The notes beneath the pieces are model-generated. The model was not told the origin of the DNA. It saw only the letters and a list, made by a program, of their open reading frames with translations, and ran no database searches. A DNA stretch of 41,595 nucleotides. Origin: Candidatus Omnitrophota bacterium (GTDB lineage Bacteria > Omnitrophota > Gorgyraeia > Tantalellales > Tantalellaceae). Position numbers and translations under genes: made by a program. The number at the start of each line of letters is the position of its first letter. Within the stretch, counting starts at the first letter, position 1. Location of the stretch: assembly GCA_015231405.1 (NCBI GenBank), contig JADGBR010000012.1:1-41595 (forward strand), given 5' to 3'. Positions 1-41,595 of this stretch are shown here, one piece after another.

Positions 1-3000
1 CGGGGCGAAAGAGACGCATTTCGTGTACACAAAGGAGGAGACGCGAATGCCTTGTCCGGAGTAAGGGATGTAATGGACCATATCGTGCGGGTAGGGTTCT
101 TTACGAAACCGGCAAGAAACATACACGCGGGAGAAAGGTTCAGTTTCGAGACCACCCTCGACCTGGAGTATCCATACGACGTTCCGAAAGATTTCCGGGA
201 TCTGTTAAGGATGCCCGGCTGGCAGGCTGACGAAGTCCTTGAACGGATCGACGATCCGATGCTGGTGGAGATGATATCCGTTTACTTGAAGAATGATCCA
301 GGACCTGACGCGGGCGGAGAAGGAGCCGGAACGAGAATAAGGAAAGTGCTCGAGTTCATAAAAGGTAAATTTCCGTACCGGAAAAGGTACGGGCTTATGG
401 AAAAACTTCTCGGGATAGACCAGATGCACGCGTTATACGAAGAGGAGATCGTCGATGAGGATACCGGAATGACCGTTTCCGTGTTCAGCGGGACGTTCAA
501 GAATGGGCTTTTGGACTATTGCGAAAAAGAGTTCGGCGGCGACTACGAGAAAATAATCCGATACCTGTATGAGATGTTCACCCGAGACCAGGCTTTGAGC
601 GTCATTGAGAACCTGGCTGAGCGGATCTACGAGGAAACGCTCAGGAACGATGCGAAGGGTGAGGTCGACCCTGATCGGCAGGAACTCGCGATAGCGTTCT
701 TTGAGTTCATCGCGTCGCGAACGGTAGAATCGAGGAGCTTTACATTTAAACCCTATAATGTCTCGAAATATCTGGACCTGACTGAAAGAAAGATCAAAAG
801 GGATTTCCCGGATAAGAACCACTCCGGGATCCGCCCGGCTACCTACCGGGCGATCAAGCTGCTTACCGCCTCGGCGCCGTTATTTGTTTCCGCGGAATTA
901 ACGCAAGAAGCGGGAAAACGCCCCCTGACCGGTGAAAAAAAATCTTTCAGCGACTGTTATTACGGGTGGAACGAAAGGGACGCCAGAACGGTATGGGGGA
1001 CAAAACCCCTCAGCCAGTCCAGGTTCGTGACATTATTACCGCTACTTACCATAGGGGAAATTGAGGAGCTTCTCGGTATAAGAAAAGAGCTGGAAGCGTC
1101 AAAGAAATATATTGAATACAGGCATAACTACCAGGTCAACCCTTTCTATCTCGATACATACTCCGATATTCTTCTGAATCTGCTCATACGTAAAAAGATG
1201 GATGCCAATTGGGGTTTGAACAAGGACCCGGCAAAACTCATGGACGAATTCATGTCACCCTCATGGGTGTCGTCCGTCGAGTATGATCTTAAGGGAATAA
1301 CTAAGAACGCCCCGGAGGACCTGATCAAGATGCTCGGCGGTCTCCCGGTGCCGACAAAAGCCTTCGAGGAGACGATAGAAAAGTACGTAGAAGCCAAAAA
1401 ATGCTACGGATCGATCCCGGAATTCGCGAAGCTGATAAACCCGCCGAGCGTAATGACAGTGGCGGCCAATGGTTACCAGGAAAGGCTGAACGGCATAAAA
1501 AAACATGTGCAGGGAAAGCAAAAGGTACCCTACAGGGATGTCGTCTCGCAACTGGCGCGCGACACGTCGCTTTACAGCAAACTTTACTCGGAGTATCTCG
1601 ATAAGTGCGGCGAGGGGTATGTCAGGGGCGATCTAAAGCCTATGGACTTGAGGTTCGAATGGTTGAAAGGAAATATCCCGGAAATATCGCTGATGCGGGA
1701 TAGTATTTTCGACCTATGGGAAGCGGACGTCTTCCCCGAGGTGCTCAGCAATTCGTCGCGCGTGTACAAGCTCATATTGCAGCTGAGATCCGCTAAAAAA
1801 GGCACAGAAGTGCTGTCGGGGGGTATGTCGATATGGCAGATGGTGAACAGCCTCGAGGACGACATGGGAAAAATACAGTGCCTGGGCGAGCTCGATAAAA
1901 TGCCTCCGGAAAGACTTAGAGGCATACTGGATTTCTACCGGAAGGCCATACCCCAGGTCTTCATGTTGCAGAAGAAATCGCGTTTCGGGGCGATAGCTTA
2001 CAGGATATGGGAGATGCTGCCGGAGAACAAAGACAAAGGGTTTGGTGAGAGGATGGAAGCGATAAGCGGCCTCATGCCGGAACCGAGCGTATTGAGGGAC
2101 GGTGTTCTCATAAAAATGTCGAATAAATACATGACGCAGTTCGAAGAGGAGGGACGGGTCACGGACCTCTTATATGAGAATAACCTCATAAGTGACGATG
2201 AGGACCTGCGCGTTCATGATTTTCTAATGGATAACATAATAAGCAATTTTTCAACGGCCGGTACGAAAGCCAGGGTGGATATCCTCTTGTGGTTCATCGG
2301 GAGAATAAAGAAGCCGCCGTTCGTGGAGGAGCTCGAGGGAACGCTTAGCGTGGATTTCAGCACACTTCCGGGAGATCTTAAGTTCATGCCGGAATCGCTC
2401 AGGCACAGGGCCATGGAAGCGTTCATGCTCGGGGACAACGGCGTACTGGACCCGGATACGGAGAAACAGTTGCTGTTCATGGACCATTTTCTGGGTGAGA
2501 TCTTCGATGATGTGTTCCCGGAAGGGACGCGGGGCCTTGAAGACGGGGACAGGATCATACTGAAAGACGTGTTCCGCGCCATAATGCGCGCGTATCCCCC
2601 ATACCGCCGGGTTCAGGTGGTAAAGACCCTCGCGGACCTGAAATACAGGGCGGATTTCAATGAAGTCGATACCGGGGACAGACTTGCGGTGCTGCTCGGC
2701 TCGCTCGGGCCGGTGGGTATAAAAGTGGCCCAGTATTTTTCTGAGAGCAGGACGCTCGTGCCCGACGACGATCTCAGGAGAAAGCTGGGGCACTTAAGGA
2801 GCAACGCCCCGGAGATCCCGAAGCTCTCGCTTATGAGCGTGCTTATAAACGAGACGCCGCTTAAGGGGCATCTTGTAAAAGGAGTGGGTGACAAGGTCGG
2901 GGTAGCCAGCGTAAAACAGGTCAACAGGGGAATGTGGGTTGATCTGGACAAGCTCCATATCCTGATCTTCGCCAGGGCTTCAGATCAGGATAAGAGAGTG

Positions 3001-5658
3001 CTGGAAAAGACTGACATAGGTCAGAGGACAGAGATCATTGACCAGGATACAAGGGCCGGGTATCTTCTGGATAAGGCCAGGGAATACGGGGTTGATCCGG
3101 GCGATGCCCGGGTAAAAGTAGTATATAAAGTGGCGAGGCCCAGCCTGGACAGCACGCTCGAAGTTGATTTTAAGGCCATGGAGGCCGTAGCTCGTGAGTT
3201 CAAGAACATCGAGCGTGACGGCCATGTCATAGACGTGAGGGACCTTGTAGATACGGTACAGGGATGGATCAAAAAAGAAAAAGATTTCAGGAACGAGGCC
3301 AGGTTCCATAATGCCATCTCAAGAAAAGAGATGGATTATTCCTATCTTTCAGGGTATGAAAAGAAAGCCGGCGTGGAACTTCGTGACCCTAAAGTCTATT
3401 TTAACACGGGTTCCGTTATGGTCGAGGAGGAAGTGCCGGGTGTGCCTCTCTACGTGCTAGGCATGGATAAAGTAAAAGTCAGTGAAGACGACATCGTTCG
3501 CCTTCTGGAATGCTCAAAAACGGAAGCTATGGATATAAAAATGAAGTTCCGCCGGCTTTTCGGCCCGGAGGCGGAAGAGCCAATTTTCCAGGAGGAGGAC
3601 GGAACCCAGAGCCCTTTAGGGGAATATACAGCCGAGGAAATGGACCGCATGGAAAGGATATATGTGTATTTGCTTAAAGCCGGTTCTCCCGGATCGAGCA
3701 TAAAGGAAGATGTGATAGCGTTGGCCGGTTTGAAAAACGGGGATATCCGCGACCTGTTGAGACACATGCTACTGCACCAGTTGTTCGTGGACGGGAAGTT
3801 CCATGCCGATCTTCATCAGGGTAATATTCTTATCACCCCCGATAAAGGGCTCTATCCGATAGACAGGGGAAACGTGGGGTTCATTAATGAAAAGCAGCGC
3901 GAAGCGGCGAAAAAGACGATGCTCGGGATATTCCTCCGGGACGCAGGTATGACACTCGAAGGGATCAACGCGTTTTTTAAGAGCTCCGGGGAGGGAGGGG
4001 AAGAACGCTTGAGCGGAATTAGGCGGCAGGATATCGAGAAGATCCTGGGTGAAGAAGAGATGTTCGAGGTGACTTTAAAACTTGTTTCATCTAAAGCGAT
4101 AGAAGGCATGAAGAAATACAAAGGAGCGGATGATTTTTCTACCGTGATGAAGGCGTTCACCCAGGCAATATATCTTTTCCCGACGACGATGAGCGAAGGA
4201 AGGGATACCATGGATGTTCTTCTCGGGTACATTAACGGAGGTGGTACAAGCCTTCAGCGCGGAGCCGTCGAAAAGGGCCTCGGCGCGTGGGGCAGGATAG
4301 AGATCATGCGGCAGGCGGAGTCCGAACAGAGGCTTAAGCAGCAGAAAGATGGCAGAGAGAAACTAAGGAAGGCCATCATGCATAAAGTAAAGAGATACAC
4401 TGACGGCATGTATCTCAAAAAATGGTGGCAACCGGTCTTTCTGCGGCTCGCTGCTTCCGTGGTGGGAAGGACAGCAGCCTACATTGACGCGGTCAGGGCG
4501 GAGCTCGTAAGCTATGTGAAAGAGAACTTCCTTGCTGTCGTCATGGAACACAAAAGTGAAATGATGGCGAACTCGCCGGGCGGTATATCAAATTCGATAG
4601 AACGCCTAATAACCGCGAAGAACCTTGAGAAGTTGGTCATGGATTTTTTCAGGTACAAGTACAGGGAAAGCCCGCGGAAGAACCTCGTAATGGGCATGGC
4701 GCGCGTGACCATAATATTGCTGTACCCGTTCAGGAATATAATAGCCAGAAAGGTCCGGGAATGGTTCCGGGCGAACTGGGTAGAGATCCTTGATAAGATG
4801 ACTGCCGGTATGGAGATCGCCAGCGCCATGGATCTTTTTGAGGTCTTATTTGCAGAAAGTGGCGATGAGTTCAAGGATAAACTGATATCAGGGTTCAGCG
4901 GGCCTACCGGTATCACGGCGATCGATATTATGAGGAAGGGTATCATAAGGGCAGGCGTGAATTCCGGGTTTACCTCTTTCGGAGGGACGCCATTCCTGGA
5001 AAAAACGCCGGCAGGCGATACCGGAACGAAGTCCGTATCTGAATGTAGGAACGTCATCCGGTCGCATTCGAGAGTCGCGGGTCGCAGGGTAACCGTACTT
5101 ATGCCCAGGACAGGCGATCACGAAAAAGCCGTGGATCCCATGAAGCACTGGCAGCAAGTGCGTTCCGACCTCAAGGACGAATATCAGATCAATAATATCT
5201 CGCTTAGGTTCTTCGACAAAGATGAAGCGGGATCCGCCATGGAGGCCGTTAAAAAGGAACTCGACGGCTCCCCGGACATGTACGCGCTGGTGTATGTGCC
5301 GGACGACATATATGAAGCGCACAAAGGCCTTTTCTCGGCTGAAGAAAGGTTCATCGGTGTCAGGGAAAAGTTCGACGATGATGGGAAATCGGAACTTATG
5401 ATCAATACGCACGTAAGCATGGCGCTCGGCATAATCACCATCGCATCCAGCGGGCTCGAAAACGACCCGATAAAGGACCTTCTCATAAATGAGATCGCGT
5501 CACTTCTGGAAAAACTGGGAGACGCCCATGGCGCCGAGAATGTCCGCAATAACTGGAAGAGCCTGATCGACGGCACGGTCACGATAAAGATCATCCCATA
5601 TTCTGAAGAGATCGAACAGAGGATGCTTGAGGAAGAAGCCGTCCTGACGGCGCTGTAA
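1..5658 (+). CDS. Giant protein with embedded UbiB/ABC1-like kinase domain (5' end probably outside window)
   Basis: The frame is open from base 1 to the stop at 5656-5658. A TTG at 52 would give 1868 residues, but no stop precedes it, so the gene may begin upstream. Numbering from that TTG, residues about 885-1275 follow the UbiB/ABC1 (AarF) order. There is a KxGQ-like segment (IKVAQ, about 887-891), an alanine-rich-loop-like ASVKQV, a VVYK segment after an insertion of about 60 residues, EKDFRNEA as the helix-C glutamate region, HADLHQGN with H1251, and DRG at 1271 in place of DFG. The flanking ~880 and ~590 residues are helical and match no family I recognise. UbiB-type kinases are atypical lipid- or quinone-linked kinases; the substrate here is unknown. 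The altered KxGQ and DFG motifs leave activity uncertain. No signal peptide can be judged because the start is not secure. Confidence 0.8.
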   Translation, partial: RGERDAFRVHKGGDANALSGVRDVMDHIVRVGFFTKPARNIHAGERFSFETTLDLEYPYDVPKDFRDLLRMPGWQADEVLERIDDPMLVEMISVYLKNDPGPDAGGEGAGTRIRKVLEFIKGKFPYRKRYGLMEKLLGIDQMHALYEEEIVDEDTGMTVSVFSGTFKNGLLDYCEKEFGGDYEKIIRYLYEMFTRDQALSVIENLAERIYEETLRNDAKGEVDPDRQELAIAFFEFIASRTVESRSFTFKPYNVSKYLDLTERKIKRDFPDKNHSGIRPATYRAIKLLTASAPLFVSAELTQEAGKRPLTGEKKSFSDCYYGWNERDARTVWGTKPLSQSRFVTLLPLLTIGEIEELLGIRKELEASKKYIEYRHNYQVNPFYLDTYSDILLNLLIRKKMDANWGLNKDPAKLMDEFMSPSWVSSVEYDLKGITKNAPEDLIKMLGGLPVPTKAFEETIEKYVEAKKCYGSIPEFAKLINPPSVMTVAANGYQERLNGIKKHVQGKQKVPYRDVVSQLARDTSLYSKLYSEYLDKCGEGYVRGDLKPMDLRFEWLKGNIPEISLMRDSIFDLWEADVFPEVLSNSSRVYKLILQLRSAKKGTEVLSGGMSIWQMVNSLEDDMGKIQCLGELDKMPPERLRGILDFYRKAIPQVFMLQKKSRFGAIAYRIWEMLPENKDKGFGERMEAISGLMPEPSVLRDGVLIKMSNKYMTQFEEEGRVTDLLYENNLISDDEDLRVHDFLMDNIISNFSTAGTKARVDILLWFIGRIKKPPFVEELEGTLSVDFSTLPGDLKFMPESLRHRAMEAFMLGDNGVLDPDTEKQLLFMDHFLGEIFDDVFPEGTRGLEDGDRIILKDVFRAIMRAYPPYRRVQVVKTLADLKYRADFNEVDTGDRLAVLLGSLGPVGIKVAQYFSESRTLVPDDDLRRKLGHLRSNAPEIPKLSLMSVLINETPLKGHLVKGVGDKVGVASVKQVNRGMWVDLDKLHILIFARASDQDKRVLEKTDIGQRTEIIDQDTRAGYLLDKAREYGVDPGDARVKVVYKVARPSLDSTLEVDFKAMEAVAREFKNIERDGHVIDVRDLVDTVQGWIKKEKDFRNEARFHNAISRKEMDYSYLSGYEKKAGVELRDPKVYFNTGSVMVEEEVPGVPLYVLGMDKVKVSEDDIVRLLECSKTEAMDIKMKFRRLFGPEAEEPIFQEEDGTQSPLGEYTAEEMDRMERIYVYLLKAGSPGSSIKEDVIALAGLKNGDIRDLLRHMLLHQLFVDGKFHADLHQGNILITPDKGLYPIDRGNVGFINEKQREAAKKTMLGIFLRDAGMTLEGINAFFKSSGEGGEERLSGIRRQDIEKILGEEEMFEVTLKLVSSKAIEGMKKYKGADDFSTVMKAFTQAIYLFPTTMSEGRDTMDVLLGYINGGGTSLQRGAVEKGLGAWGRIEIMRQAESEQRLKQQKDGREKLRKAIMHKVKRYTDGMYLKKWWQPVFLRLAASVVGRTAAYIDAVRAELVSYVKENFLAVVMEHKSEMMANSPGGISNSIERLITAKNLEKLVMDFFRYKYRESPRKNLVMGMARVTIILLYPFRNIIARKVREWFRANWVEILDKMTAGMEIASAMDLFEVLFAESGDEFKDKLISGFSGPTGITAIDIMRKGIIRAGVNSGFTSFGGTPFLEKTPAGDTGTKSVSECRNVIRSHSRVAGRRVTVLMPRTGDHEKAVDPMKHWQQVRSDLKDEYQINNISLRFFDKDEAGSAMEAVKKELDGSPDMYALVYVPDDIYEAHKGLFSAEERFIGVREKFDDDGKSELMINTHVSMALGIITIASSGLENDPIKDLLINEIASLLEKLGDAHGAENVRNNWKSLIDGTVTIKIIPYSEEIEQRMLEEEAVLTAL

Positions 5659-7057: not shown

Positions 7058-10000
7058 ATGTCTAAGAACAACTCAAATATCCCCATTACATTTCCCGGCG
7101 TCGACGTGGTCGAAGCTTCGGCGGGGTCGGGGAAGACTTACGCGCTGGCTAAGAGGTTCATTCAGCTTTTGATGCATCCGGGGATGGACCAGTTCGAGGA
7201 TCCGCTTAAGAGCGTGATGGCGGTCACGTTCACTAATAAGGCGACGGTCGAGATGCGGTCCCGGATGATCGAGTTCCTGAAAAGGATAGCGCTCGACGAT
7301 TTTAAGGATAAGGATACGCGCGCGGATATTCTCGGGACGCTCGAAGTGTCTCCGGCCCAAGCCGCGAAGAAAGCGGTCCTCATACTCGACGCGATACTCG
7401 AGAATTACGGCAGTTTTCAGGTGCGCACCATGGACAGTTTCGTGAATACCCTCATTAAAAGCTCGGCGTTCCATCTTGGGCTTTCACCCCGGGCGAGGAT
7501 CAAGGATGAATACCGTCCTTATCTCGAGTTCGCGCTGGAAAGGACCATCGACAGGGTGGATACGGATAAAGGCGTCCGGAAAGCCCTCGAGAGGTTCCTG
7601 GATTATTATATTTTCGTCGAGCAGAGGGACGGGTGGTTCTCGCGGAAGGATATGATAGGCTTATTGGACGCGCTCTTTAATTTTTCAACGAGCTACGGAG
7701 GCGAGTTCAGCCGGTCGAACGTGAAGCTAAGCGATATCATGAAAATGGAGGACGATCTCGTTGCGAAAGTTAACGGCCTCGTCGAGGTGGGCGCTCCCGA
7801 AGGCGTAAATATGACGTTCTGGAACGGCCTCGATAACTTCAGTATGAACGGGTTTTCCAAAGGCTTATCGGCGAGTTTTGATAAAGACGAGTTCAAAATG
7901 AAAAAAGGGTACCCTGCTCCCAAAGGCATGGCGGCGCTCTGGGACCCGATCAGGAAGGGCATAATAAAATATGTCGAAGCTAAATGCTATGACGGGCTGG
8001 ACGCCTATATCGAGATGTTCGATATTGTAAGGGACGATATGAGGGCGATCGCTGGGGAAGATGAGGTCATTTTTCTCCCTGAGCTGAACGTTATGGCCGG
8101 GAAACTTTTTAAGTCCGGCGGGATCGACATATCCGAACTCTATTACAGGCTCCAGGCCAGGATCCGGCATTATCTCATAGACGAGTTCCAGGATACGAGC
8201 AAGCTGCAGTGGGCTAACTTTGAGCCGTTAGTCGAGGAGGCGCTCTCGAACGGGGGGACACTCTTCTATGTGGGAGACAAGAAACAGGCCATTTTCGGGT
8301 TTAGGGGCGGGACAAGCCTTCTTTTTGACGGAGCGAGGCAGAGTTTCCGCTCTTTTGAGCCCAGGATAAAGGCGCTCGACAAGAATTACAGGTCGCGTGA
8401 GAATATCGTGAATTTTAACAACAATATTTTTTCATACGCGAATATAACGAGGTTATTGGATGCGATCGAAGAGAGAAAAAATATTCAGGTGATATTTTCG
8501 GTTGAGGAACGAAGCATGGTCTTGGACGCGTATCATGGCGCTCGGCAGTCTTTTAAGGAGGGGAAGGAAGGCGGTTTTGTCCGTTACGAGATACTGGACG
8601 CGGATGAGGCGGCCCCTGACGGGACGGAGGACAGGGGATCTGACGGATCGGGGGAAGATATCGGGGAAGAAGAACACGTTATCCCTGAGTCGATGCGGGA
8701 AAAGATCGGCGCGCTTATCTCTGACATAACCGCCAGGTATACCTACGCGGATATCGCCATCCTTGCCAGGACCAATAGCGACGTGAAGGAAATAACGTCA
8801 TGGCTTCTCGATGCCGGTATACCGGTCGAGAGCGAACGGACGCTGTCCATAAAGGAACATTTTCTCATAAAACAGATACTCGCGCTCCTCGGGTTCCTTT
8901 CGAGCCCAATAGACGATCTCGCCTTCGCAGCGTTCATCCTGGGCGATATTTTCGGGAAGATAACCGGCGTAGATAACGCAGGGATCAGGGATTTCCTGTT
9001 CGAACTGAGGGTCGAACGCGGCAAGGAGAGGGAAGAAGCCTTGTATTCGATCTTTAGGAAAAAATATCCCGCTATCTGGGATGACCTTATCGACGGGCTT
9101 TTTAAGAGCGTCGGCTTCGTCCCGCTGTATGAGCTTGTCATAACGATCTACCGCAGGATGAATGTCATCCGGAACTTTCCGGAATACCAGGGCTTTTTCA
9201 TGAAGTTCCTCGAGATAGTGAGGCGGAAGGAGGAAGACGCGCCGGGTATACGCGAATTCCTGGACCTTTTCGAAAGGATAGACGACAGGGAAATGTACGT
9301 GAGTGTCCCGCGGCTAGAGGCGGTGAGCGTCCTCACGGTGCATAAGGCCAAGGGTCTGGAGTTCCCTGTGGTGATAGTGCCGATGCTGAAAATGGACTTG
9401 AAGGTAGGGGCGGGGAGCCAGACGCTCAGGAAGCCTTACATTATCCGTGACGGAGAAGGCGGGTCATTGCGGCTGGCTCAGCTAAAAAAGGATCTTATCC
9501 GGTTCTCCGACGATCTGACGAAAGAATATTCGAAAGAGTACGCGCGGGCCCTTCTCGACGAGCTGAATAGCGTATATGTCGCATTGACAAGGGCCGAGGA
9601 TGAACTTTACGTTTTTATTCCGCAAAAAAGCGGGAATTCGCGGAATATAGCGCTCTCCTTATTTGACGAAAATGTCCGGGAAATAGGCGTAAAACGGGTT
9701 AAGGCGGAGAAGAAGAAAGAGGGTGACGAAATAATGGCGCTGGGCGCGTCCGAATACTCCGACTGGCTGTCTTTCCTCAGGGAAGAAACGACCGACGGTA
9801 ACGAGCTCGTCAACAGGCGAAGGCTGTTCGAAGGCGAGGTCTGTCACAGGATGCTGAGCTATATTCTCGATCTTTCCGGAGGTGATATGGACGCGCTCAT
9901 CGGGGACGCTGTAACTAAGACTGTTAGCGAGTTCCCTGAACTTTCTTCGGGGGATATCTCGAAATACAGGAAAAAAATAACGGCTCTGGTCAAAGATAAG

Positions 10001-10261
10001 TCGCTCGCGCATATTTTCTCGACCCAGATCGCCGCCGTATATAACGAAATGGAAGTGGTCGACCGTAACGCCATGACGAAACGAATGGACAGGGTGATCG
10101 TTACGGATAAAAAAGCCATAGTCGTTGATTATAAGAACTCTAAAGGCGACTACGCCGCCCAGGTGAAAGAATATATGTCGCTGCTAAAGGATATTTATCC
10201 GGGACGGGTTGTCGAGGGGTATCTTCTATATCTTGATACTCATGAATTGGAGGAATGTTGA
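7058..10261 (+). CDS. addA: AddA/RecB-like UvrD-family helicase-nuclease
   Basis: This 1067-residue protein is one subunit of a double-strand-break end-processing complex. SF1A motifs occur in order: Walker A SAGSGKT with K26, Walker B DEFQDT from D375, the VGDKKQAIFGFRGG motif near 405, LTVHKAKGLEFP near 764, and YVALTRAEDELYV near 840. A RecB-family nuclease closes the protein, with CHRMLSY near 930, MDRV, then VVDYKN with D1024 and K1026, and a Q-x3-Y helix. All catalytic positions appear intact. The family resects ends and loads recombinase for homologous repair. It is followed, after an 80-base palindromic repeat, by the AddB-like gene, so the two probably form one unit. The ATG at 7058 is preceded by only a weak ribosome site. 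Confidence 0.9.
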   Translation: MSKNNSNIPITFPGVDVVEASAGSGKTYALAKRFIQLLMHPGMDQFEDPLKSVMAVTFTNKATVEMRSRMIEFLKRIALDDFKDKDTRADILGTLEVSPAQAAKKAVLILDAILENYGSFQVRTMDSFVNTLIKSSAFHLGLSPRARIKDEYRPYLEFALERTIDRVDTDKGVRKALERFLDYYIFVEQRDGWFSRKDMIGLLDALFNFSTSYGGEFSRSNVKLSDIMKMEDDLVAKVNGLVEVGAPEGVNMTFWNGLDNFSMNGFSKGLSASFDKDEFKMKKGYPAPKGMAALWDPIRKGIIKYVEAKCYDGLDAYIEMFDIVRDDMRAIAGEDEVIFLPELNVMAGKLFKSGGIDISELYYRLQARIRHYLIDEFQDTSKLQWANFEPLVEEALSNGGTLFYVGDKKQAIFGFRGGTSLLFDGARQSFRSFEPRIKALDKNYRSRENIVNFNNNIFSYANITRLLDAIEERKNIQVIFSVEERSMVLDAYHGARQSFKEGKEGGFVRYEILDADEAAPDGTEDRGSDGSGEDIGEEEHVIPESMREKIGALISDITARYTYADIAILARTNSDVKEITSWLLDAGIPVESERTLSIKEHFLIKQILALLGFLSSPIDDLAFAAFILGDIFGKITGVDNAGIRDFLFELRVERGKEREEALYSIFRKKYPAIWDDLIDGLFKSVGFVPLYELVITIYRRMNVIRNFPEYQGFFMKFLEIVRRKEEDAPGIREFLDLFERIDDREMYVSVPRLEAVSVLTVHKAKGLEFPVVIVPMLKMDLKVGAGSQTLRKPYIIRDGEGGSLRLAQLKKDLIRFSDDLTKEYSKEYARALLDELNSVYVALTRAEDELYVFIPQKSGNSRNIALSLFDENVREIGVKRVKAEKKKEGDEIMALGASEYSDWLSFLREETTDGNELVNRRRLFEGEVCHRMLSYILDLSGGDMDALIGDAVTKTVSEFPELSSGDISKYRKKITALVKDKSLAHIFSTQIAAVYNEMEVVDRNAMTKRMDRVIVTDKKAIVVDYKNSKGDYAAQVKEYMSLLKDIYPGRVVEGYLLYLDTHELEEC

Positions 10262-10267
10262 TAACTT

Positions 10268-10347
10268 CGTCATTGCGAGGGCGCAATAGCGCCCGAAGCA
10301 ATCTATAAAAGTTTATATAGATTGCTTCGCTTCGCTCGCAATGACGG
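10268..10347. repeat. Interspersed palindromic repeat between the AddA and AddB genes
   Basis: The arms start CGTCATTGCGAG on the left and end CTCGCAATGACG on the right. The left arm has an extra GGCGC-aata-GCGCC mini-hairpin. The AddB-gene ATG at 10341 lies inside the right arm. Confidence 0.85.
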
Positions 10348-13196
10348 ACCATAACGGTAGAAGGTCAGATTTGAATAAGATAATTTGTTATAGCCCCAGG
10401 GAGAACTTTATCGGGAAACTGGCCGCGCATATCGATGCGGCGTACATGAAGCCCGGCAAGGATATGCGGAGGCTCGCCTGCGTCTTCGAGGGTAAACGCC
10501 CGTCGTTTTTTCTTAAGAAAGAGCTCTCTTCGCGTTTCCCCGGGACTTTCATCCCGCCCAGGGTATTCTCGATCGACGAATTCGCTTCTTACTTACTGAG
10601 TAAGAAGCGTCCCGTTAAACCTGTTCTCACTATGGACGCCTGCTACATGATCTACAATATCATAAAGGACAGAACGCCCGAAATACTCGAGAAAAGGGGC
10701 GGTTTCGCCGAGTTCCTGCCATGGGCCAGGGAGATAGCGGGATTCATCGATCTTATCGACGCCGAAGGGATACCCTCCGAAAAACTTTCCGGCGTAGAGG
10801 CGAGCGCTTCCATCGGTTACGACGTGCCGGAAAATATCAATAAGGTGCTCCGTAATATCGTTCTTATCCGGAGCGAATACCATAAAAGGTCCGAGGAAAA
10901 AGGCGTTTATCCAAGAGGTTTCAGGTACAGCATTCTCGCTCGAGAGATAGATAAAGAATGTTTCGCCGAATTTGACGAGATCTATTTCTGCGCTTTTTAT
11001 TTTATGCAGAAGACGCTCGTCGACGTGGCGAAATTTATTTGTTCCGCCGGTAAGGGGACGTTCTTTTTCCAGGCCGATGACGAGTCCGGCGGGCCTGTCG
11101 CCGAAATAGCCGCTTCTCTCGGCGTTGGCGTAAATTTCGAAAAGGGAACGCTGCCGGACGCCAAAAAGATCAGCTTGTATTCCGCGTCTGATACGCATGG
11201 ACAGGTCGCCGCCGCGCGGGATATCCTGAAAAAGAACTTGGCCGACCCGGGATCTACCGTCGTCGTTCTCCCTGACGCGGAAGCCGTCATACCGCTCATT
11301 TCCGAACTCGGTTCGGGTTTCGGCGATTTCAACGTTTCTCTGGGGTATCCTCTCAAAAGAAGCGCGCTCGCCGCGCTATTCGCCCTTATCGTGAAAGCCC
11401 AGAAGACGAGGAGATCCGGCAAATACTATACGAAGGATTATATATCTGTAATATCCCAGCCTCTCGCTAAGAACATGCTCGTCGAGTCGGATGAGCGTAT
11501 CACGAGGATCGTCGTCCATAAGATCGAGGAATACCTTATTTCGAACGACTCCGGCGGGATATCGGGGAGCATTTTCATCGAGCTTGCCGATATCGTAAAT
11601 GAAGATAAGATCTACGCTAACGCCGAAGAGACTTTCGGGTATATGGGTATCACCGCGCTTCCGGACGACATAAGGCGCGTGGTCGAATATCTCCACGAGA
11701 CCTTCTTTACGACATGGGAAAATATCACGACCCTCGCCGGATTCGCCGGGGCGCTCGAGAAATTTCTCGAACGCATGGCGTCGACGAGCGCGCTCGGCAA
11801 GTATCCCCTTAACGTAAAGACGGCCGAAAGGTTCTGGGCCATAGCCGACGAGATGAAAGGCGCTTCATGCGGCGCCGAAACTTTCAGGAAAGAGGAGATA
11901 TTCAGGATTTTCAATAATATCCTCGAAAGCGAAATGCTGAAATTCTCGGGGTCGCCGCTCAAGGGCCTCCAGGTCCTGGGTATCCTGGAAACTAGGGCCG
12001 TCAATTTCGATAACGCCGTTATCCTGGACGCGAACGAGGGGAAACTCCCCGCCGAAAGTCCGGACCATCCGCTCATCCCGAACGAGATCACCAGGAGCCT
12101 TGGCGTCGATATGGCGAAGAGAGAGGAGAAGGTCCAGGAATATCTCTTTAACCGCCTCATAAAATTCGCCAAAAGGGTGGATATCATCTATGAAGAAGCG
12201 ACCGGAAAGGAACGGAGCCGTTTTCTCGAGAAGACGCTCTGGGCTCTCGAGAAAGAGAAAAAGATTTTCGAGACCGTTAAGGCCCGTAAGGCCGGGTTCC
12301 GGGCGAGTATCTCCGGGAAAGAACGCTCTATCCCCAAGGGCCGGCGGGTAGCTGAATTCCTCATGGGGCACAGATATTCGGCCAGCAGCATCAATACGTA
12401 TCTCAACTGTCCTCTCCAGTTCTATTACCGCTACGCGCTTTTACTCGAGGAAAAGGACGAGATCTCCGATGTCGTCGAAGGCAGCGATATCGGCACTTTT
12501 ATCCACGAGCTGTTAGAGGCCGCTTATAAGCCGTTCATCGGGAAAAGACCCGAAATAGACGAAGGTTTTCGCGAAGCGCTGTTCAACGATCTCTCGAAAA
12601 AGTTCAAATATGTGTTCAGTAAGAAGATGCGAGCCGATTCGTTCATTCTCGAGACCGTGATGCGCGGTAAACTCGAAATGTTCCTGAAACACGAGTCCGA
12701 GCGCGACATTGAAGAGATACTGTATCTCGAGGAAAAGTTCACTCCGGATTTGGTCCTCCCGTCGAACACTTTCAAATTCCAATATACCGTCGACAGGGTA
12801 GATAAGCTCGGCGACGGGTCGATCCTGGTACTGGATTATAAGACCGGCCTCGACGCGAAAAAGCCCGTGGAAACGAAAAAGCTTGGCGGGATGGTCTATG
12901 ACCGCCGAGCGATCAAAAACAAAATTAGGTCGTTTCAGCTCCCGCTGTATTATCTCTTCGAAAAGGAAAAATATCCCGGACGGGAGATGAACGCCGCGCT
13001 CTATAGCCTGAGGAAACCCGGTTTAAAATATCTCATTACTCCGGGGAAGACCGATATCGCCCTCACCATGGAAATATGCCTTAGATCCCTGGACGCCATC
13101 ATGGCCGAGATCATCGATCCTGACGTCCCGTTCAGCGCTGATACTGACGATAACACGTCGTGCAGGTATTGTCCCTTCGGGGGGATGTGTTCTTAG
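10341..13196 (+). CDS. addB: AddB-like nuclease subunit with predicted 4Fe-4S staple
   Basis: The protein has 951 residues. The C-terminal third is an AddB/RecB-type PD-(D/E)XK nuclease: a YSASSINTYLNCPLQFYYRY entry segment with C690, GTFIHELLE, then VLDYKTG. It ends in C941-x2-C944-x5-C950, the spacing of the iron-sulfur staple of AddB. The N-terminal region is helicase-like, but where AddB often has Walker A this protein reads YSPRENFIGKL, so ATP binding is probably lost. It should pair with the AddA-like protein for end resection. The ATG at 10341 lies in a palindromic repeat with no ribosome site. TTG at 10371, behind GAAGG, is a credible alternative that starts just before the first conserved strand. 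Confidence 0.88.
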   Translation: MTDHNGRRSDLNKIICYSPRENFIGKLAAHIDAAYMKPGKDMRRLACVFEGKRPSFFLKKELSSRFPGTFIPPRVFSIDEFASYLLSKKRPVKPVLTMDACYMIYNIIKDRTPEILEKRGGFAEFLPWAREIAGFIDLIDAEGIPSEKLSGVEASASIGYDVPENINKVLRNIVLIRSEYHKRSEEKGVYPRGFRYSILAREIDKECFAEFDEIYFCAFYFMQKTLVDVAKFICSAGKGTFFFQADDESGGPVAEIAASLGVGVNFEKGTLPDAKKISLYSASDTHGQVAAARDILKKNLADPGSTVVVLPDAEAVIPLISELGSGFGDFNVSLGYPLKRSALAALFALIVKAQKTRRSGKYYTKDYISVISQPLAKNMLVESDERITRIVVHKIEEYLISNDSGGISGSIFIELADIVNEDKIYANAEETFGYMGITALPDDIRRVVEYLHETFFTTWENITTLAGFAGALEKFLERMASTSALGKYPLNVKTAERFWAIADEMKGASCGAETFRKEEIFRIFNNILESEMLKFSGSPLKGLQVLGILETRAVNFDNAVILDANEGKLPAESPDHPLIPNEITRSLGVDMAKREEKVQEYLFNRLIKFAKRVDIIYEEATGKERSRFLEKTLWALEKEKKIFETVKARKAGFRASISGKERSIPKGRRVAEFLMGHRYSASSINTYLNCPLQFYYRYALLLEEKDEISDVVEGSDIGTFIHELLEAAYKPFIGKRPEIDEGFREALFNDLSKKFKYVFSKKMRADSFILETVMRGKLEMFLKHESERDIEEILYLEEKFTPDLVLPSNTFKFQYTVDRVDKLGDGSILVLDYKTGLDAKKPVETKKLGGMVYDRRAIKNKIRSFQLPLYYLFEKEKYPGREMNAALYSLRKPGLKYLITPGKTDIALTMEICLRSLDAIMAEIIDPDVPFSADTDDNTSCRYCPFGGMCS

Positions 13197-16599: not shown

Positions 16600-17694
16600 A
16601 TGAAGAGGAAATTCCTGGTATACTTATCTTTATTTCTGGTGGTATCTTTCGTTGCCGGAGAGTACCTGTATTTGATGGCGCCGGAAATTGTCGATAAGGC
16701 TTCCCGGAAGGCCATAAAAGTCGTCACGAAAGTGATGAATAATGAAGGCATCAAGTTCGAAAGGCTTGACTATAATTGGGTTCTGGTAAAAGGAGTTTCG
16801 GGTATATCCTGGAACGACGTCAACATATCCATTAACGTCAATAAGGGCTCAGCAGAGGAAGATAAAAAGTTCTTTTACATGTACGTTAAAGAGGCGGAAT
16901 TCTCCGTTCAGAACCTGCTGGCTGAGACATTTCTGATAAATATTCGGGATATAAGCGTCATCCGGGGTAAAGGCCTGAACGCTTTCGCCAACTGGCTGGG
17001 AGAGTATGAGATACCTCTTGAGGATAATAACTTCAAGATCCTTTTTCGTCTGGATATTTTTAATCCCTCGAACGCCATTCTTCAGCTTGAGCAGTACTAT
17101 TTTAATTTCGTGCGGTTCATGAAGGATTCGAGGGGTTATATGCCCATGTCGTCATCCATAAGCACCTCTTTCATGATCAACGATGAACCCTTTAAGGTCA
17201 GATTGGAGATAGTGTTCAATAAACAGGAAGGCGAGTACGGAATGCAATTGAACATAAATGACCTTAGATCCATTTCGGCGATTATGCCTAACCCGATGAA
17301 CGAACTCGAATTAGGTATTATTTCGAAGAACCCGGATAAAGCCTCAACGCTCTTTGGTATATGGCGTAGGTCGATCGACGAGTGGAAAAAAACGGAGAAG
17401 ACCCGACCCGAGTTAGCCCACGCCTACAGGCATGTGTTCTGGAGCTATCTTCTCACGAACGCCTACGGCCAGGATTTCGCGCGAATGGTGACCGACGCCC
17501 ATGAGAGCAACGAGGGATCGGAGCTGGATCACGAGATGGATCAGAAGAACAACGAACTGGGACGGGAATACGCGGCTAGGGGCTACCAGGAGTACGAGCT
17601 TCTGGATAAACTGTCGAAAGATCCCAATGCCGTGCGATCCGAAAAAGAAATCGGCCTGGCGCGGCAACTAATAACAATGATGAAAGGACAATAA
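16600..17694 (+). CDS. Membrane-anchored protein with C-terminal DUF6973-like domain
   Basis: This protein has 364 residues. An N-terminal signal anchor (about 5-26) is followed by some 240 residues of beta-rich sequence. The opening, a helix and then GVSGISWNDVNI, recalls AsmA-type periplasmic proteins. The last 95 residues carry HAYRHVFW (H274, R277, H278), DAHE (H301, E302) and a later DQKNNELGRE. This is the histidine-rich pattern I associate with DUF6973, a domain of unknown function also seen at the ends of polymorphic toxins. The conserved H, R, D and N residues suggest an enzyme. The domain would be periplasmic. It has its own promoter and no immunity-like gene directly beside it, so a toxin role is not supported here. 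Confidence 0.7.
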   Translation: MKRKFLVYLSLFLVVSFVAGEYLYLMAPEIVDKASRKAIKVVTKVMNNEGIKFERLDYNWVLVKGVSGISWNDVNISINVNKGSAEEDKKFFYMYVKEAEFSVQNLLAETFLINIRDISVIRGKGLNAFANWLGEYEIPLEDNNFKILFRLDIFNPSNAILQLEQYYFNFVRFMKDSRGYMPMSSSISTSFMINDEPFKVRLEIVFNKQEGEYGMQLNINDLRSISAIMPNPMNELELGIISKNPDKASTLFGIWRRSIDEWKKTEKTRPELAHAYRHVFWSYLLTNAYGQDFARMVTDAHESNEGSELDHEMDQKNNELGREYAARGYQEYELLDKLSKDPNAVRSEKEIGLARQLITMMKGQ

Positions 17695-28375: not shown

Positions 28376-30043
28376 ATGAATAAGTCGACCCTGTTTTGCC
28401 TGTTGTTCTGTTTCGCTGCTTTTTTGTCGGGAGCCGAGGAGAGCGTTCCCTCGTCGATAAAAGCCGTGACTTTATATCCTTCCGAGGCGCTTATTACGCG
28501 GGAGGCCGTTTTTAAGGCGGGAAAGGGGATAGATAAGATACAACTGGATATCGAGGCGTTCTACGTGGACGGGGATTCGGTATCCGCGGCGGTGTTCGGG
28601 GACGGCCAGACCATGGGCGTCCAGCTGAAAGAGAAATATCTCACGGAGATGCCCCAAGCCGCGGTGAAAGAGCTCGAAAAAAAACTCGAGGACCTGAAAG
28701 AGTCCCGGAAAGCCGCCGCGCATACCGGCGAGGTTCTCTCTAAAAAAGAGGAATTCCTCAACGGGGTCGTGAATTTCGCAAATGTTCAGGTGCCCGTGGA
28801 AATGAAGACATCTTTCCCAAAGCCGGAGGACCTAGCGGGAACGATGGATTTTCTGGGAATTAATTTCACACAGGTATATAAAGAGAGGGACCTCGTCGAG
28901 ATACAGCTCCGCGATATGGACAAAGAGATCGAGAGGGTCGAGAACGAGCTCGGCGCGGTGCGCGGCCCCGCTGACAGGGCAAAATACATGATAGAGATAC
29001 TATTCGACTCGAAAAAAGAGCAGGAGATCAGGATAGAGGCGAGCTACCTCGTCTCTTATGCCGGATGGGAGCCGCTCTACAGGGCCGACGTGCCGGCAGG
29101 GCTAGGCGCGCTGAATCTCACAATGTTCTCCTCGGCGAGGCAGACGACAGGTGAGGACTGGAAAAAGATAAAGCTCAGCCTGTCTAATGTTCAGCCTCTT
29201 CAAGGCGGAAGCCTTCCAGATCCGGGCAAATGGGATATATATCTTCTTCCTAAGGAGCCTCAGCCCGCGCCTGAGGTATGGATGATGAGAACAAGAAAGG
29301 CCATGGTAGCCTCGGAAATGGCCGATGCCGGCGTTTCGGCCGATCGGGAAGAAAGCGCTCCTCCCGCGGCGAAAAGTGACTTAGCGGGATACGCTTCGGC
29401 AACACGTTCCGAAACGGCGATGTCGTTCGAGTATCTTCTCCCAGAGCCGCTCGACATACCGTCGAGGGAGGAGAGTTCGGTCCTTCCGGTCTTCACTAAA
29501 AGCGTGAAGGGAGAATATTTTCATTTTTGCGCTCCCCAGGTGAATTCTCAGGTGTTCATGGTATGCAGGGCCGAAAGCGACCGCGAGATCCTAGGCGGCA
29601 TGCTGAACATCTATTTTGGCGGGAAGTATGTCGGTAAGGTATATCTTTCCGAAAAAAAGCCGGGCGAGTTCTTCGATATACCGCTCGGAGCCGACCGCGA
29701 GGTTAATGTGAAACGCGAGAAGGTGAAAGACAAACTCGATGAAACTTTCCTCGGCAAGATAGAAAGGCTGACGGTCATGCGGTCTCTTTCTTTCAGGATA
29801 ACCGTCGAGAATATGAAAGACAAACCGGCGCTCCTCCGGCTCGTCGACGCTATTCCCGTTTCCGCGACGGATAAGGTCGTGGTCAAGGATTTGGTGTTCT
29901 CAGTACAGCCTGACGAAAAGAATTACCTTGGAAAAGAAGGCGTCATGCTCTGGAAGATCCCATTAGGCCCGAAAGAAACTAAAACGGTGACGGTCGATCT
30001 CAATGTGACTTACCCGAAGGATGAGACTGTAGCGGGGCTGTAA
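28376..30043 (+). CDS. DUF4139 (mucoidy inhibitor MuiA-like) exported protein
   Basis: This protein has 555 residues. The signal peptide (about 1-20) is followed by the DUF4140 strand region (IKAVTLYPSEALITREA, 28-45), a coiled coil (about 92-130) and then DUF4139. That domain includes ASYLVSYAGWEPLYRADV and later TGEDWKKIKLSLSNVQP. The C-terminus has repeated strands ending with ETKTVTVDLNVTYP. The AAAAAGGAGG ribosome site is strong. This family is widespread in Gram-negative periplasms; the MuiA name comes from an effect on mucoid growth, but the mechanism is unknown. It is 29 bases downstream of the flavoprotein gene and may share its transcript. Confidence 0.9.
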   Translation: MNKSTLFCLLFCFAAFLSGAEESVPSSIKAVTLYPSEALITREAVFKAGKGIDKIQLDIEAFYVDGDSVSAAVFGDGQTMGVQLKEKYLTEMPQAAVKELEKKLEDLKESRKAAAHTGEVLSKKEEFLNGVVNFANVQVPVEMKTSFPKPEDLAGTMDFLGINFTQVYKERDLVEIQLRDMDKEIERVENELGAVRGPADRAKYMIEILFDSKKEQEIRIEASYLVSYAGWEPLYRADVPAGLGALNLTMFSSARQTTGEDWKKIKLSLSNVQPLQGGSLPDPGKWDIYLLPKEPQPAPEVWMMRTRKAMVASEMADAGVSADREESAPPAAKSDLAGYASATRSETAMSFEYLLPEPLDIPSREESSVLPVFTKSVKGEYFHFCAPQVNSQVFMVCRAESDREILGGMLNIYFGGKYVGKVYLSEKKPGEFFDIPLGADREVNVKREKVKDKLDETFLGKIERLTVMRSLSFRITVENMKDKPALLRLVDAIPVSATDKVVVKDLVFSVQPDEKNYLGKEGVMLWKIPLGPKETKTVTVDLNVTYPKDETVAGL

Positions 30044-38402: not shown

Positions 38403-41400
38403 ATGCAGTTAACTTATCATATGCCTAGCATTATTAATAAAGTCATATCTGTATTATTATCGGGGGTGCTGTTCTTTGGTGATATATCATCCGCGATAGA
38501 AACACGTCCAATAATTATTCCCCAACAAAACGACAAACTCTCTCCTGTTTCCGGGTTCAGCGAGGAAGATCTTGAGGCAGTATCCAAGGCGATGCAGCGG
38601 CTTGGCCTTGCGACAGGGAGCGGTTCCACCTTAGAGCAGAGGGAATATACGGCTTTTCTTTACGCGAATAGCCTTATCGCAAGAATTTTAACGAGATACG
38701 GGGGTAATGTCGAGGCTGATCTTCTCAAGGAATTGATACAAAAGCATATCGGGGACCAATACGATTCGGAAAAGTTCAAATGGGGCAAACTCGAAAGGAA
38801 TAATGCCGGGGTATACAGGCTTCCGGTAGAGAGTGAACAGGGTCAGCCGGTAAAGGCTTTATATTATTTTCTGCCCGGAGCCGGAACTCGAGGCTTAATG
38901 GAAATGTCCGGGAAGGTCGGGAAATACGATGTCAGGGTTTTCGCGGAGAAAGGGAAGAAAGTTTCGGATAGCGAAGAACTCAAGGAAGGGCAAGTGGTCC
39001 TTTTTATCCGCCGGAACCGCGAGACAGGCAATTATATTTCGGCGGTGGAACTTGTCGTGAGGAAAGTATTGGACGCCGCGGACGGTAAAGAGGTCATATT
39101 GCAGAAGGGCGGCTATTTGAGCGATACGGCCGTTAACGCCGTCCATTCGTATTTCGGGGACAGAGGTGAAAAGCTTTTCGTTCAGGACGAGATCTTTATG
39201 CTCGGAGATCCAAAACCGGCAAAGAAGAAGGAGCGCCGCGGAAAAAAGAAAGGCAAAGGGTTCGATCCGTCGGGTAACTCTCTTCCCGCGTACGCGGATC
39301 TCGGCATCGACAAGAACCTCAAAGCGGATTTCACGGCGGGCGAGATATCGAAAATGATAGATCTCGCGGTCAAGGGGGACATAGCCGCGATAAGGGCCAT
39401 GCATGTAACTACCGGAGATAATTCCTTCGGGGAGCTGATCAGGATCTCTTTCATTAAACTATCGGAAAGGATAGCTAAACTGCCTGACGGCGAGAAAGCC
39501 ACGGTTGGAGGCATATTAAGGTCGCCCCATAATACCGCACTAACGATCAATAGCCTGTCGATCGAGACGGCCAGCCGGGGGATCTTTCGGAAACGTATGG
39601 GTATGTTCGGGAGAATGCTTGGGAGAGCTTCTGCCAGATATTTCGACAAAAAAAATAAAAAAGTTTCGATAGTCCTGGACATGCGTTTCGTAAAGGCTCT
39701 TCTCTCAGGCGGGTATAGGGATATCGCTGCCGAGATACTGGCGGAGAGGCTGGCCCATGAGCTGGCGCATGATAATGAACTCAGGGAGGAATATCGCGAG
39801 AACAATGAGGAAACGCGGGTAATAATTTACGTGGATATACCGCTCTTTAAGGCCATCAGGGATAACGCACCTCTTCGTTCATCCATAGAAAGGTTCAGGC
39901 AAAATAAGCGTTTGTCGTTGACGATGTACCATTCCGGAAGGTATTTCAGGAAGCTCGAGGAGTGGTCCGGTATCCCGGGCTATAAGGGCCTATTCAAAAT
40001 CGTTCATGCCTATATTAAGAGCGTGTCTACTGGCCCTTGGGAGGGAAAGGGGTACCCTGTTCCCGTGGCGGTCAGAATGGCAGGGGGCATATATGAGCCG
40101 GGGTCGATAGTTGATTATTTTAATCTCATTTTATCCAATGAGTCAATTAATAGCCCGGATAGCGGGATAAGTCTCGGGGAGATAGCCAGCCGCGTTGGAG
40201 CGGATCAAGCCGATATAAAACGGGCAATGGCTTTTCTGGTCCGGACCCTCAAGATCGTAATGTCGGACACGGGACATTTAAGCAGGGATGCTCGTTACTA
40301 TATTCCTGAAAGCGTAAGGATAAAAAGGAACCTGTTGATCGCGCTTTTATCGGCGAAAGGCCTTAGTGAAGTAAAACAAAAAATAAGTCATGAAGAAGGG
40401 CTGGAAATATCGCGGCTGGTATCCTTTGTCAGCCTCCACTACCATGATCCCGACCTGAGAGTGCCGGATAATAGGGCGCCTATTACCCCGGGCATTCTTG
40501 TCGCCGGGATGAAAGATGTGCTCGGGAATATGGATGAGTTGCGAACTGTTCTTTCGAACGGGCTTGAGCCTTATTCAGATAGGGCCGGGAAGAGCAAAAA
40601 TAGAACCGGGAATAACGGATACACCAGCGAGAGATCACCCGGTAGTGTCATTCTGTCGATGGTAGGGAAAAACAGGGATTTTATAGATACCGGCGCGTTC
40701 TCTGCACTGATCAGACGCGGCGGCATCGGTTTCGTAATCGACCCCGCGTATGTGTCGCTTCAGGAAAACGGGTTTTACGCGGCGGGCAGACACCTGTCGC
40801 CGGGGTCTTATTACAGGCCATGTTACCAGGGGCCGCACGGGTTTATTTATAACAGCATGATATACCGCCGCGGAAAGGGCTTTAATGTGCCTTTTGACGC
40901 CGTTATGAGCGAAAGAGCCATCCCGCGGGGAGCTATTAAAAAACTGGTTTTGAACCGTTTATCGAGGAGCGCGGAAACGCGATCTACTTTTAATGAGGAG
41001 CTGGGGGCAGTCAGAAAAATATTAGCGGAAGAATTCCCCTTAGAGGGTATACAGATAATCGACGAGTTCGGATGGATATGGTATGAACAATCGGCGTTCT
41101 CCCATGATACGGTAAGCTCGAAAGAAAAGATAATAGACGGCCTGATAGGGCTCGTCAACGACGAGGGCTTTAGGACCAATATGGGTATAGCTAATCAGGG
41201 AATGGATGAAAATGAGCTTAGAAGGGCCCTGGACATGCTGGGTCCTCTGGATGGCGCCGATATTCTTTTCGCGGGAGAAGGTGTGACCGTAATGCCGTTA
41301 CTGGCCCTTCTCAAAGGCGCGAAGAAGGTGACGATAGCGGACGCAGAAGACTCTATCAATGCCAGATGGGGTGTGATGATCGATCTTTTCAGGGATGACC

Positions 41401-41595
41401 TCCGGAAAGTAGGCATAGAACTTTCGCCGAAGAATATAAGGGTGTGCAAAATGAACATGATCAGGGAGGGGGTCCCATACGGGAAGTACACTCATGTGGT
41501 TTGTTTGAATGTCTTTAACCCTATTCCCAATACAATGCGGGAGCTTGACCGGGGAAGCGTTCCTTTTAATAAAATGGGATCGGCAGTTATGGGCT
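38403..41595 (+). CDS. Giant exported multidomain protein, 3' end outside window
   Basis: The frame is open from ATG 38403 to the window edge, at least 1064 residues. Residues 1-31 are a signal peptide (core KVISVLLSGVLFF, cut near ISSA). Residues about 40-440 are mixed alpha/beta with a lysine-rich linker (KPAKKKERRGKKKGK). H452-E453-L-A-H456 sits in a helix (LAERLAHELAHDNE), the pattern of a zinc-dependent gluzincin or an HExxH-containing peptidase. Residues about 590-650 look like a winged helix (LGEIASRVGADQADIKRA). From about 950 a Rossmann-like methyltransferase start appears: DILFAGEGVTVMPLLALL, then KKVTIADAED. No ribosome site is clear, but a strong promoter is present. The whole is not a family I can name. 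Confidence 0.75.
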   Translation, partial: MQLTYHMPSIINKVISVLLSGVLFFGDISSAIETRPIIIPQQNDKLSPVSGFSEEDLEAVSKAMQRLGLATGSGSTLEQREYTAFLYANSLIARILTRYGGNVEADLLKELIQKHIGDQYDSEKFKWGKLERNNAGVYRLPVESEQGQPVKALYYFLPGAGTRGLMEMSGKVGKYDVRVFAEKGKKVSDSEELKEGQVVLFIRRNRETGNYISAVELVVRKVLDAADGKEVILQKGGYLSDTAVNAVHSYFGDRGEKLFVQDEIFMLGDPKPAKKKERRGKKKGKGFDPSGNSLPAYADLGIDKNLKADFTAGEISKMIDLAVKGDIAAIRAMHVTTGDNSFGELIRISFIKLSERIAKLPDGEKATVGGILRSPHNTALTINSLSIETASRGIFRKRMGMFGRMLGRASARYFDKKNKKVSIVLDMRFVKALLSGGYRDIAAEILAERLAHELAHDNELREEYRENNEETRVIIYVDIPLFKAIRDNAPLRSSIERFRQNKRLSLTMYHSGRYFRKLEEWSGIPGYKGLFKIVHAYIKSVSTGPWEGKGYPVPVAVRMAGGIYEPGSIVDYFNLILSNESINSPDSGISLGEIASRVGADQADIKRAMAFLVRTLKIVMSDTGHLSRDARYYIPESVRIKRNLLIALLSAKGLSEVKQKISHEEGLEISRLVSFVSLHYHDPDLRVPDNRAPITPGILVAGMKDVLGNMDELRTVLSNGLEPYSDRAGKSKNRTGNNGYTSERSPGSVILSMVGKNRDFIDTGAFSALIRRGGIGFVIDPAYVSLQENGFYAAGRHLSPGSYYRPCYQGPHGFIYNSMIYRRGKGFNVPFDAVMSERAIPRGAIKKLVLNRLSRSAETRSTFNEELGAVRKILAEEFPLEGIQIIDEFGWIWYEQSAFSHDTVSSKEKIIDGLIGLVNDEGFRTNMGIANQGMDENELRRALDMLGPLDGADILFAGEGVTVMPLLALLKGAKKVTIADAEDSINARWGVMIDLFRDDLRKVGIELSPKNIRVCKMNMIREGVPYGKYTHVVCLNVFNPIPNTMRELDRGSVPFNKMGSAVMG

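Follow-up and report, generated by a model that had tools for sequence, protein, structure and literature searches.

The window analyzed here, bases 1 to 41595 of the forward strand of contig C3 from a Candidatus Omnitrophota bacterium (GenBank JADGBR010000012.1; C3 spans 84,065 base pairs [bp] of a 3.66-Mb assembly in 93 contigs), begins within a gene that encodes a kinase domain of the UbiB/COQ8 type. Sequence comparison and structure prediction indicate that this open reading frame (ORF) encodes the C-terminal part of one protein from a family of giant paralogues in Omnitrophota. Complete members consist of a signal-like hydrophobic N terminus, in several cases a module of ∼550 amino acids (aa), an M48 zinc metallopeptidase domain, a long linker, a helical region leading into a divergent UbiB/COQ8-like kinase, and a tail, which in many giants of the source genome ends in EVxRSL-COOH. 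We lean toward the reading that such a giant is an exported or anchored M48 peptidase and UbiB-like kinase, most likely working in another cell or in an ATP-containing contact zone. Labels beginning with C denote contigs or giants of the source genome (G000); other G labels denote other genomes. The features of the window ORF are as follows.

1..5658, plus strand: open frame of 1885 codons, 1868 aa from TTG52 (ORF scan)
1..34, no strand assigned: contig end, probably chimeric; identical to C79:643-676 and antisense to the C79 coding frame
1918..2640, plus strand: helical region ahead of the kinase, residues 640-880, common to the giant kinases (alignment, model)
2671..4248, plus strand: UbiB/COQ8-like kinase domain, residues 891-1416 (Pfam, TIGRFAM, predicted fold)
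2722..2733, plus strand: KxGQ motif as KVAQ, residues 908-911 (alignment)
2899..2910, plus strand: Ala-rich loop as GVAS for AAAS, residues 967-970 (alignment, profile against COQ8A)
2947..3114, plus strand: insertion ahead of VVYK, about residues 983-1038 (alignment)
3127..3129, plus strand: nucleotide-binding Lys K1043 of VVYK (alignment)
3277..3297, plus strand: ExD and alpha-C Glu, E1093, D1095, and E1099 (alignment)
3802..3825, plus strand: catalytic loop HADLHQGN, residues 1268-1275 (alignment)
3862..3864, plus strand: metal-binding Asp D1288 of DRG, at the DFG position (alignment)
4957..5655, plus strand: C-terminal domain, residues 1653-1885, shared with C11, C13b, and fragment C12 (alignment)
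5584..5655, plus strand: final 24 aa, a tail with VLTAL at its end and a variant form of the EVLRSL-COOH tail (tail comparison)

An initial annotation of this DNA had placed UbiB motifs in a giant frame, and the motifs lie where it put them. Pfam ABC1 (PF03109) matched the ORF with an E value of 5.6e-23 (81.8 bits against a cutoff of 22.9), and TIGR01982 matched at 1.2e-27, its 96.5 bits falling under the equivalog cutoff of 487.55. By sequence, the kinase profile reached COQ8A chains at an E value of ∼2e-18. A nine-row alignment (A1) of window residues 640 to 1430 with relatives served as input for an AlphaFold2 model, which had a mean predicted local distance difference test score (pLDDT) of 80.8 and a predicted template modeling score of 0.78. 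With this model, Foldseek returned ten matches at E ≤ 0.001, every one of them COQ8A, MSMEG_1954, or Rv3197, with TMt values of 0.57 to 0.65 to the COQ8A chains. Comparison with UbiB/COQ8 structures, which the annotation had proposed as a test, gave a kinase fold: the top VIA-align match was human COQ8A (5i35; Z 13.5, root mean square deviation 4.2), with 351 residues aligned across window residues 891 to 1416. These matches and models place the ORF in the UbiB/ABC1 superfamily, with a predicted COQ8-like fold and an N-terminal extension. Even as a fragment, the ORF is ∼3-fold too long for a canonical UbiB protein.

The window protein has the VxxK, ExD, and HxDxHxGN motifs, together with KVAQ for KxGQ and DRG for DFG (both as first reported) and GVAS for AAAS. 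Over 14 aligned kinase rows, the window included, D1270, N1275, and D1288 are each conserved in 14/14, and K1043 and the alpha-C Glu in 13/14; conservation in relatives, which the annotation had marked for checking, extends to nearly all catalytic residues. The KxGQ and ExD elements of COQ8A lie over the substrate cleft, and one Ala-to-Gly change in its Ala-rich loop switched nucleotide preference and permitted autophosphorylation, according to PMC4718504. Among the giants, KxGQ appears as KxAQ in several rows and as QLAQ in G020, and the Phe of DFG is retained in 1 row of the 14. We do not claim the giants' Gly as a natural equivalent of COQ8A A339G: A339 is presumably the third alanine of AAAS, and the Gly falls mostly at the first. 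The insertion of ∼60 residues reported before VVYK is real (55 to 60 residues) and occurs in only three of 10 aligned rows, those of the window protein, C11, and C13.

As the annotation had observed, the frame is open at its left edge. That edge is the end of contig C3, not a natural gene start, and the window ORF is therefore a fragment, the C-terminal part of a giant protein, although a start at TTG52 is conceivable. Window residue 39 aligns near residue 1748 of paralogue C11, which would make the complete protein ∼3,600 aa long and the window protein probably its C-terminal half. The kinase had been described as lying mid-protein, which holds for the window fragment only; the complete paralogues have it in their second half. 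The first 34 bases of the window are identical to C79:643-676 (E value of 1.6e-9) and antisense to its coding frame, C79 (3401 bp) being one continuous open frame over its whole length on the strand opposite the match. Because the C79 copy sits in a segment that aligns with C11, the copy at the window edge is probably foreign, and residues 1 to 11 of the ORF are probably not native. In a profile search, C79 was found to bear part of the N-terminal module (residues 3 to 344) and an M48 domain (residues 469 to 614), and its alignment to C11 would end it a few hundred bases before the window start. C79 is likely, if unproven, to be the missing upstream part of the window giant; it could also belong to another giant.

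Nine ABC1 matches were detected in six ORFs of the source genome, namely, the window ORF and ORFs of 2325, 3109, 3558, 3655, and 3773 aa; the same search across the 3.66 Mb found no stand-alone or standard-size UbiB ORF. Alignments of the window protein to its two nearest paralogues span 1,142 columns at 32% identity and 1,360 columns at 30%. All five complete kinase paralogues of this genome carry Peptidase_M48 above the Pfam cutoff, upstream of the kinase, and HExxH with a downstream E.DAD was present in 6/6 aligned M48 domains. Across 14 kinase ORFs examined, M48 lies upstream in the same ORF in 10 and in a preceding, overlapping ORF in 2 (G015, and G135b, with masked bases between), and 2 (the window and G025) are cut at a 5' contig end. 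The kinase profile was built from nine ORFs and the M48 profile from six domains, and those rows match by construction; the M48 domains of C66, G006, G020, G154, and G135a matched though absent from the profile input. Among the kinase giants, C10, C11, C13, C29, and G004 have the N-terminal module, and C66, G020, G154, and G135a do not.

Beyond the source genome, the window protein was matched (E ≤ 0.001) in 8 of 59 relative genomes, its own included. ABC1 matches at E ≤ 1e-5 occurred in 23 of 197 genomes of the class: eleven are ORFs of 555 to 597 aa with E ≤ 7.8e-77 (standard UbiB), and the remaining matches are weaker and mostly within long ORFs. Weak ABC1 matches in G013, G173, G143, G145, and G041 had no kinase-profile match and were left out; there were also weak matches in short ORFs (267, 579, 427, and 457 aa). 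A related-locus search with the whole window protein as the query returned no relative. With the kinase alignment, the best 80 loci, listed by one motif, contained no motif-bearing ORF of at least 900 aa, a result that does not imply absence elsewhere; 71 of these 80 had only ORFs shorter than 700 aa.

A tree was built from the kinase domains of the 14 giants and 18 standard UbiB proteins, the latter spanning several phyla. The class contributed six of its eleven standard UbiB loci (L052, L053, L055, L056, L059, and L060), the other five being dropped by a length and motif filter. A branch with support of 100/99.6 separated the giants from all standard UbiB proteins, those of the same class included. 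In the same tree, the internal order of the giants had little resolution for the most part, and three giant rows sat on long branches. In an RpoB tree, the source genome grouped with a Candidatus Omnitrophota metagenome-assembled genome (MAG), L106, with support of 100/99; a second Omnitrophota-labeled MAG, L140 (partial RpoB, 41% identity), fell outside that group. ORFs as large as those found here are also in keeping with Omnitrophota as described in PMC10066038.

The kinase giants belong to a wider set of large proteins. Residues 1 to 1,600 of C11 match 45 places in the source genome, and a profile of the N-terminal module (motif pattern HIQDAHCN...LEGG...TGGFH) found 38 ORF pieces there (L020-L026 and L179-L208), some of which are duplicates or contig-edge pieces. 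Phylum-wide, the module was detected at E ≤ 1e-10 in 103 of 193 genomes; listed module ORFs range from 446 to 35,113 aa, and some amount to copies of about 520 to 550 aa. N termini were compared in 32 of the 38 pieces; the other six were duplicates, lay at contig edges, or were open at the 5' end. A hydrophobic peak of at least 2.0 occurred in 25 of the 32 versus 6.9% of control windows, and net charge was higher before the hydrophobic segment than after it in 31, with one tie. The C-terminal set (n = 33) drew 30 of its members from the 38 pieces, to which the window, C66, and C12 (a near copy of another) were added. Ser occupies position −2 in 25/33 and Leu position −1 in 22/33; 19/33 end in SL, compared with 0.6% SL dipeptides in the same proteins. 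The tail conserved at many G000 giant C termini reads ...I(K/P)(I/V)(D/N)xEEIxExxxAxxEVLRSL-COOH. Fragment C12 carries the same C-terminal domain as the window protein but shows no kinase. The C-terminal regions of C12 (L026) and C13b (L025) are 85% identical over 245 residues, a likeness that points to recent duplication among the giants. Pfam payloads in 17 of these giants included AAA_5, FHA, PGM, methyltransferase, ARMT1-like, and TPR, with weaker matches to CofD and cNMP_binding; many giants carry none.

The model of the N-terminal module was of middling quality (pLDDT 68.4). Foldseek returned nothing for it at E ≤ 0.001, and Pfam gave no convincing match to the module. VIA-align listed ChaN 2g5g (Z 8.4), EreC 6xcs (7.6), 2qgm (7.6), HopBA1 5t09 (7.5), 3b55 (7.1), and 6xcq (7.0), values of 7.0 to 8.4 that are near the tool's stated background, with unrelated rows scoring similarly. 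The motifs of the module resemble those of ChaN/EreA/TraB proteins, and the fold listing agrees with the expectation drawn from them but is close to background. A catalytic His/Glu constellation is expected of a ChaN/EreA-like group; H28, E56, and H424 of A2 (N-terminal module) are invariant in 5/5 rows.

Elsewhere in the window, positions 7058 to 13196 encode a UvrD/Rep-type helicase, then a PD-(D/E)XK nuclease protein (an AddAB-like pair), then seryl-tRNA synthetase; this is ordinary chromosome adjoining the giant gene. A DUF6973 protein lies at 16600 to 17694 and a DUF4139/DUF4140 protein at 28376 to 30043. At the right end, an ORF of 1393 aa (38403 to 41595, continuing to C3:42584) has a signal-like N terminus and a giant-like tail ending DPVDLGELRKLYERERDVLVAA; its window part had no Pfam match. 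Three more large ORFs (2132, 1688, and at least 1260 aa) come after it in a run.

In the exported or anchored peptidase-kinase reading, which we consider somewhat more probable than its opposite, the N-terminal segment would export the giant or anchor it with its body outside the cytoplasm, as the positive charges ahead of the hydrophobic segment predict. The kinase domain would bind Mg-ATP in a COQ8-like active site, and the KxGQ and ExD helices over the substrate cleft would suit an ATPase or a small-molecule or lipid kinase rather than an ordinary protein kinase. It would work in step with the neighboring M48 peptidase. Because the kinase needs ATP, its workplace would most likely be either a prey or host cell or a contact zone that contains ATP. 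Export-type N termini combined with payloads that need cytosolic metabolites (kinase, ATPase, and methyltransferase) favor action in another cell's cytoplasm. Predatory or host-dependent traits are described for Omnitrophota in PMC10066038, where giant ORFs are left unexplained.

Several points weigh against this reading. Export, cleavage, activity, and target are what we infer, and signal-likeness was scored by hydrophobicity and charge alone. Since the contig ends there, the window ORF has no signal-like segment or M48 domain of its own. Of the 14 rows, one (G135a) is without the alpha-C Glu and the lysine of VxxK, C66 and G015 have no Gly after the DFG-position Asp, and Gly stands at the first Ala of AAAS in 11/14 rows, where an effect on activity is only putative. 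Enzymes of 3,600 aa, partly ATP-dependent, would be unusual Sec substrates, and payloads of cytosolic type could just as well indicate that the giants remain inside the cell.

A giant that is exported or anchored might also serve its own envelope in a housekeeping capacity, as an M48 peptidase for quality control or processing, similar in kind to HtpX, BepA, or OMA1 and coupled to an ATP-sensing or lipid-handling UbiB-like module. We take this possibility seriously while regarding it as doubtful. ATP is scarce outside the cytoplasm, and six kinase paralogues and 38 module ORF pieces with unlike payloads in one genome look more like a diversified arsenal; however, the M48 and kinase core also occurs without the N-terminal module (C66, G020, G154, and G135a), and PMC7263595 describes stimulation of E. 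coli UbiB, yeast Coq8, and COQ8A ATPase by quinone-intermediate analogues. It seems unlikely that the domain serves a giant surface protein as a pseudokinase or structural scaffold, given that the Lys, alpha-C Glu, catalytic Asp, Asn, and metal Asp are retained in 13 to 14 of 14 rows despite low overall identity. Loss of the DFG Phe in all rows but one, of the following Gly in C66 and G015, and the frequent change of KxGQ to KxAQ would suit such a scaffold, as would the statement in PMC7263595 that none of UbiB, Coq8, and COQ8A had been demonstrated to act as a protein kinase in trans.

An ordinary UbiB protein of quinone biosynthesis or regulation, fused by chance, would explain the TIGR01982 match at 1.2e-27. 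We rejected canonical UbiB identity on the sub-cutoff score (96.5 bits against 487.55) and the tree split (100/99.6, same-class UbiB included), and the presence of six such genes in one genome, against no standard UbiB detected there, makes chance fusion highly improbable. Least credible to us is an assembly or frame artifact joining unrelated genes, which the annotation had named as a way in which its claim could fail. A foreign origin is probable for the first 34 bases, but the rest of the ORF aligns in one frame to two paralogues over >1,100 columns at 30 to 32% identity. For bases 35 to 5658, a frame error or chimera is largely refuted by this alignment and by five single-ORF paralogues in the genome, and giant ORFs in other genomes likewise exclude a frame error.

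The peptidase-kinase reading may be part of something broader. Conceivably, though we would not call it probable, a phylum-wide giant export system, marked by the common N-terminal module and, in the source genome at least, by the -SL tail, delivers cytosol-type enzymes into partner or prey cells, with the window protein as one peptidase-kinase effector. Equally tentatively, the tail would be read by some machinery, and the cargo would comprise the kinase with M48, AAA ATPases, methyltransferases, and others. The roles of Omnitrophota giant ORFs are called poorly understood in PMC10066038, and the shared module and tail offer a handle on these giants through profile recognition and payload comparison. 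UbiB/COQ8 proteins are roughly 550 aa long, and their true activity is debated (PMC4718504, PMC7263595). A deep UbiB side branch that keeps nearly all catalytic residues, with no standard UbiB detected beside it in the source genome, provides an independent test of the fold's role; part of that test is M48, which accompanies the kinase at every examined ORF with an intact upstream part. The UbiB kinase fold is known; its placement in giant, M48-linked, signal-bearing proteins is new as far as the open-access literature reaches, where we found no description of such proteins (bioRxiv and most subscription journals were outside the scope of the search), in keeping with the annotation's view of this arrangement as undescribed.

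The giants share with UbiB/COQ8/ADCK kinases the predicted fold, ExD, and the catalytic and metal residues. They differ in size (kinase ORFs of 1328 to 7817 aa, fragments included, against ∼550 aa), in fusion or adjacency to M48, in having mostly GxAS and DxG where the known kinases have AAAS and DFG, and in occupying a separate tree branch. With M48 metallopeptidases (PF01435), of which HtpX, BepA, and OMA1 are examples, the giant paralogues share HExxH and the downstream E.DAD acid ligand; here, however, the domain lies inside a giant, upstream of a kinase, and the window fragment is without it. The predicted fold of the paralogues' N-terminal module may resemble the group of ChaN, erythromycin esterase (EreC), and HopBA1, at near-background Z, and the module differs in a long helical insert. 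The Omnitrophota giant ORFs of Seymour et al. 2023 (PMC10066038) come from the same phylum and are likewise of giant size with few annotated domains. That account, as far as it describes them, proposes adhesion or polysaccharide roles and finds the giants of one class mostly poorly conserved, whereas many of the giants described here share one N-terminal module.
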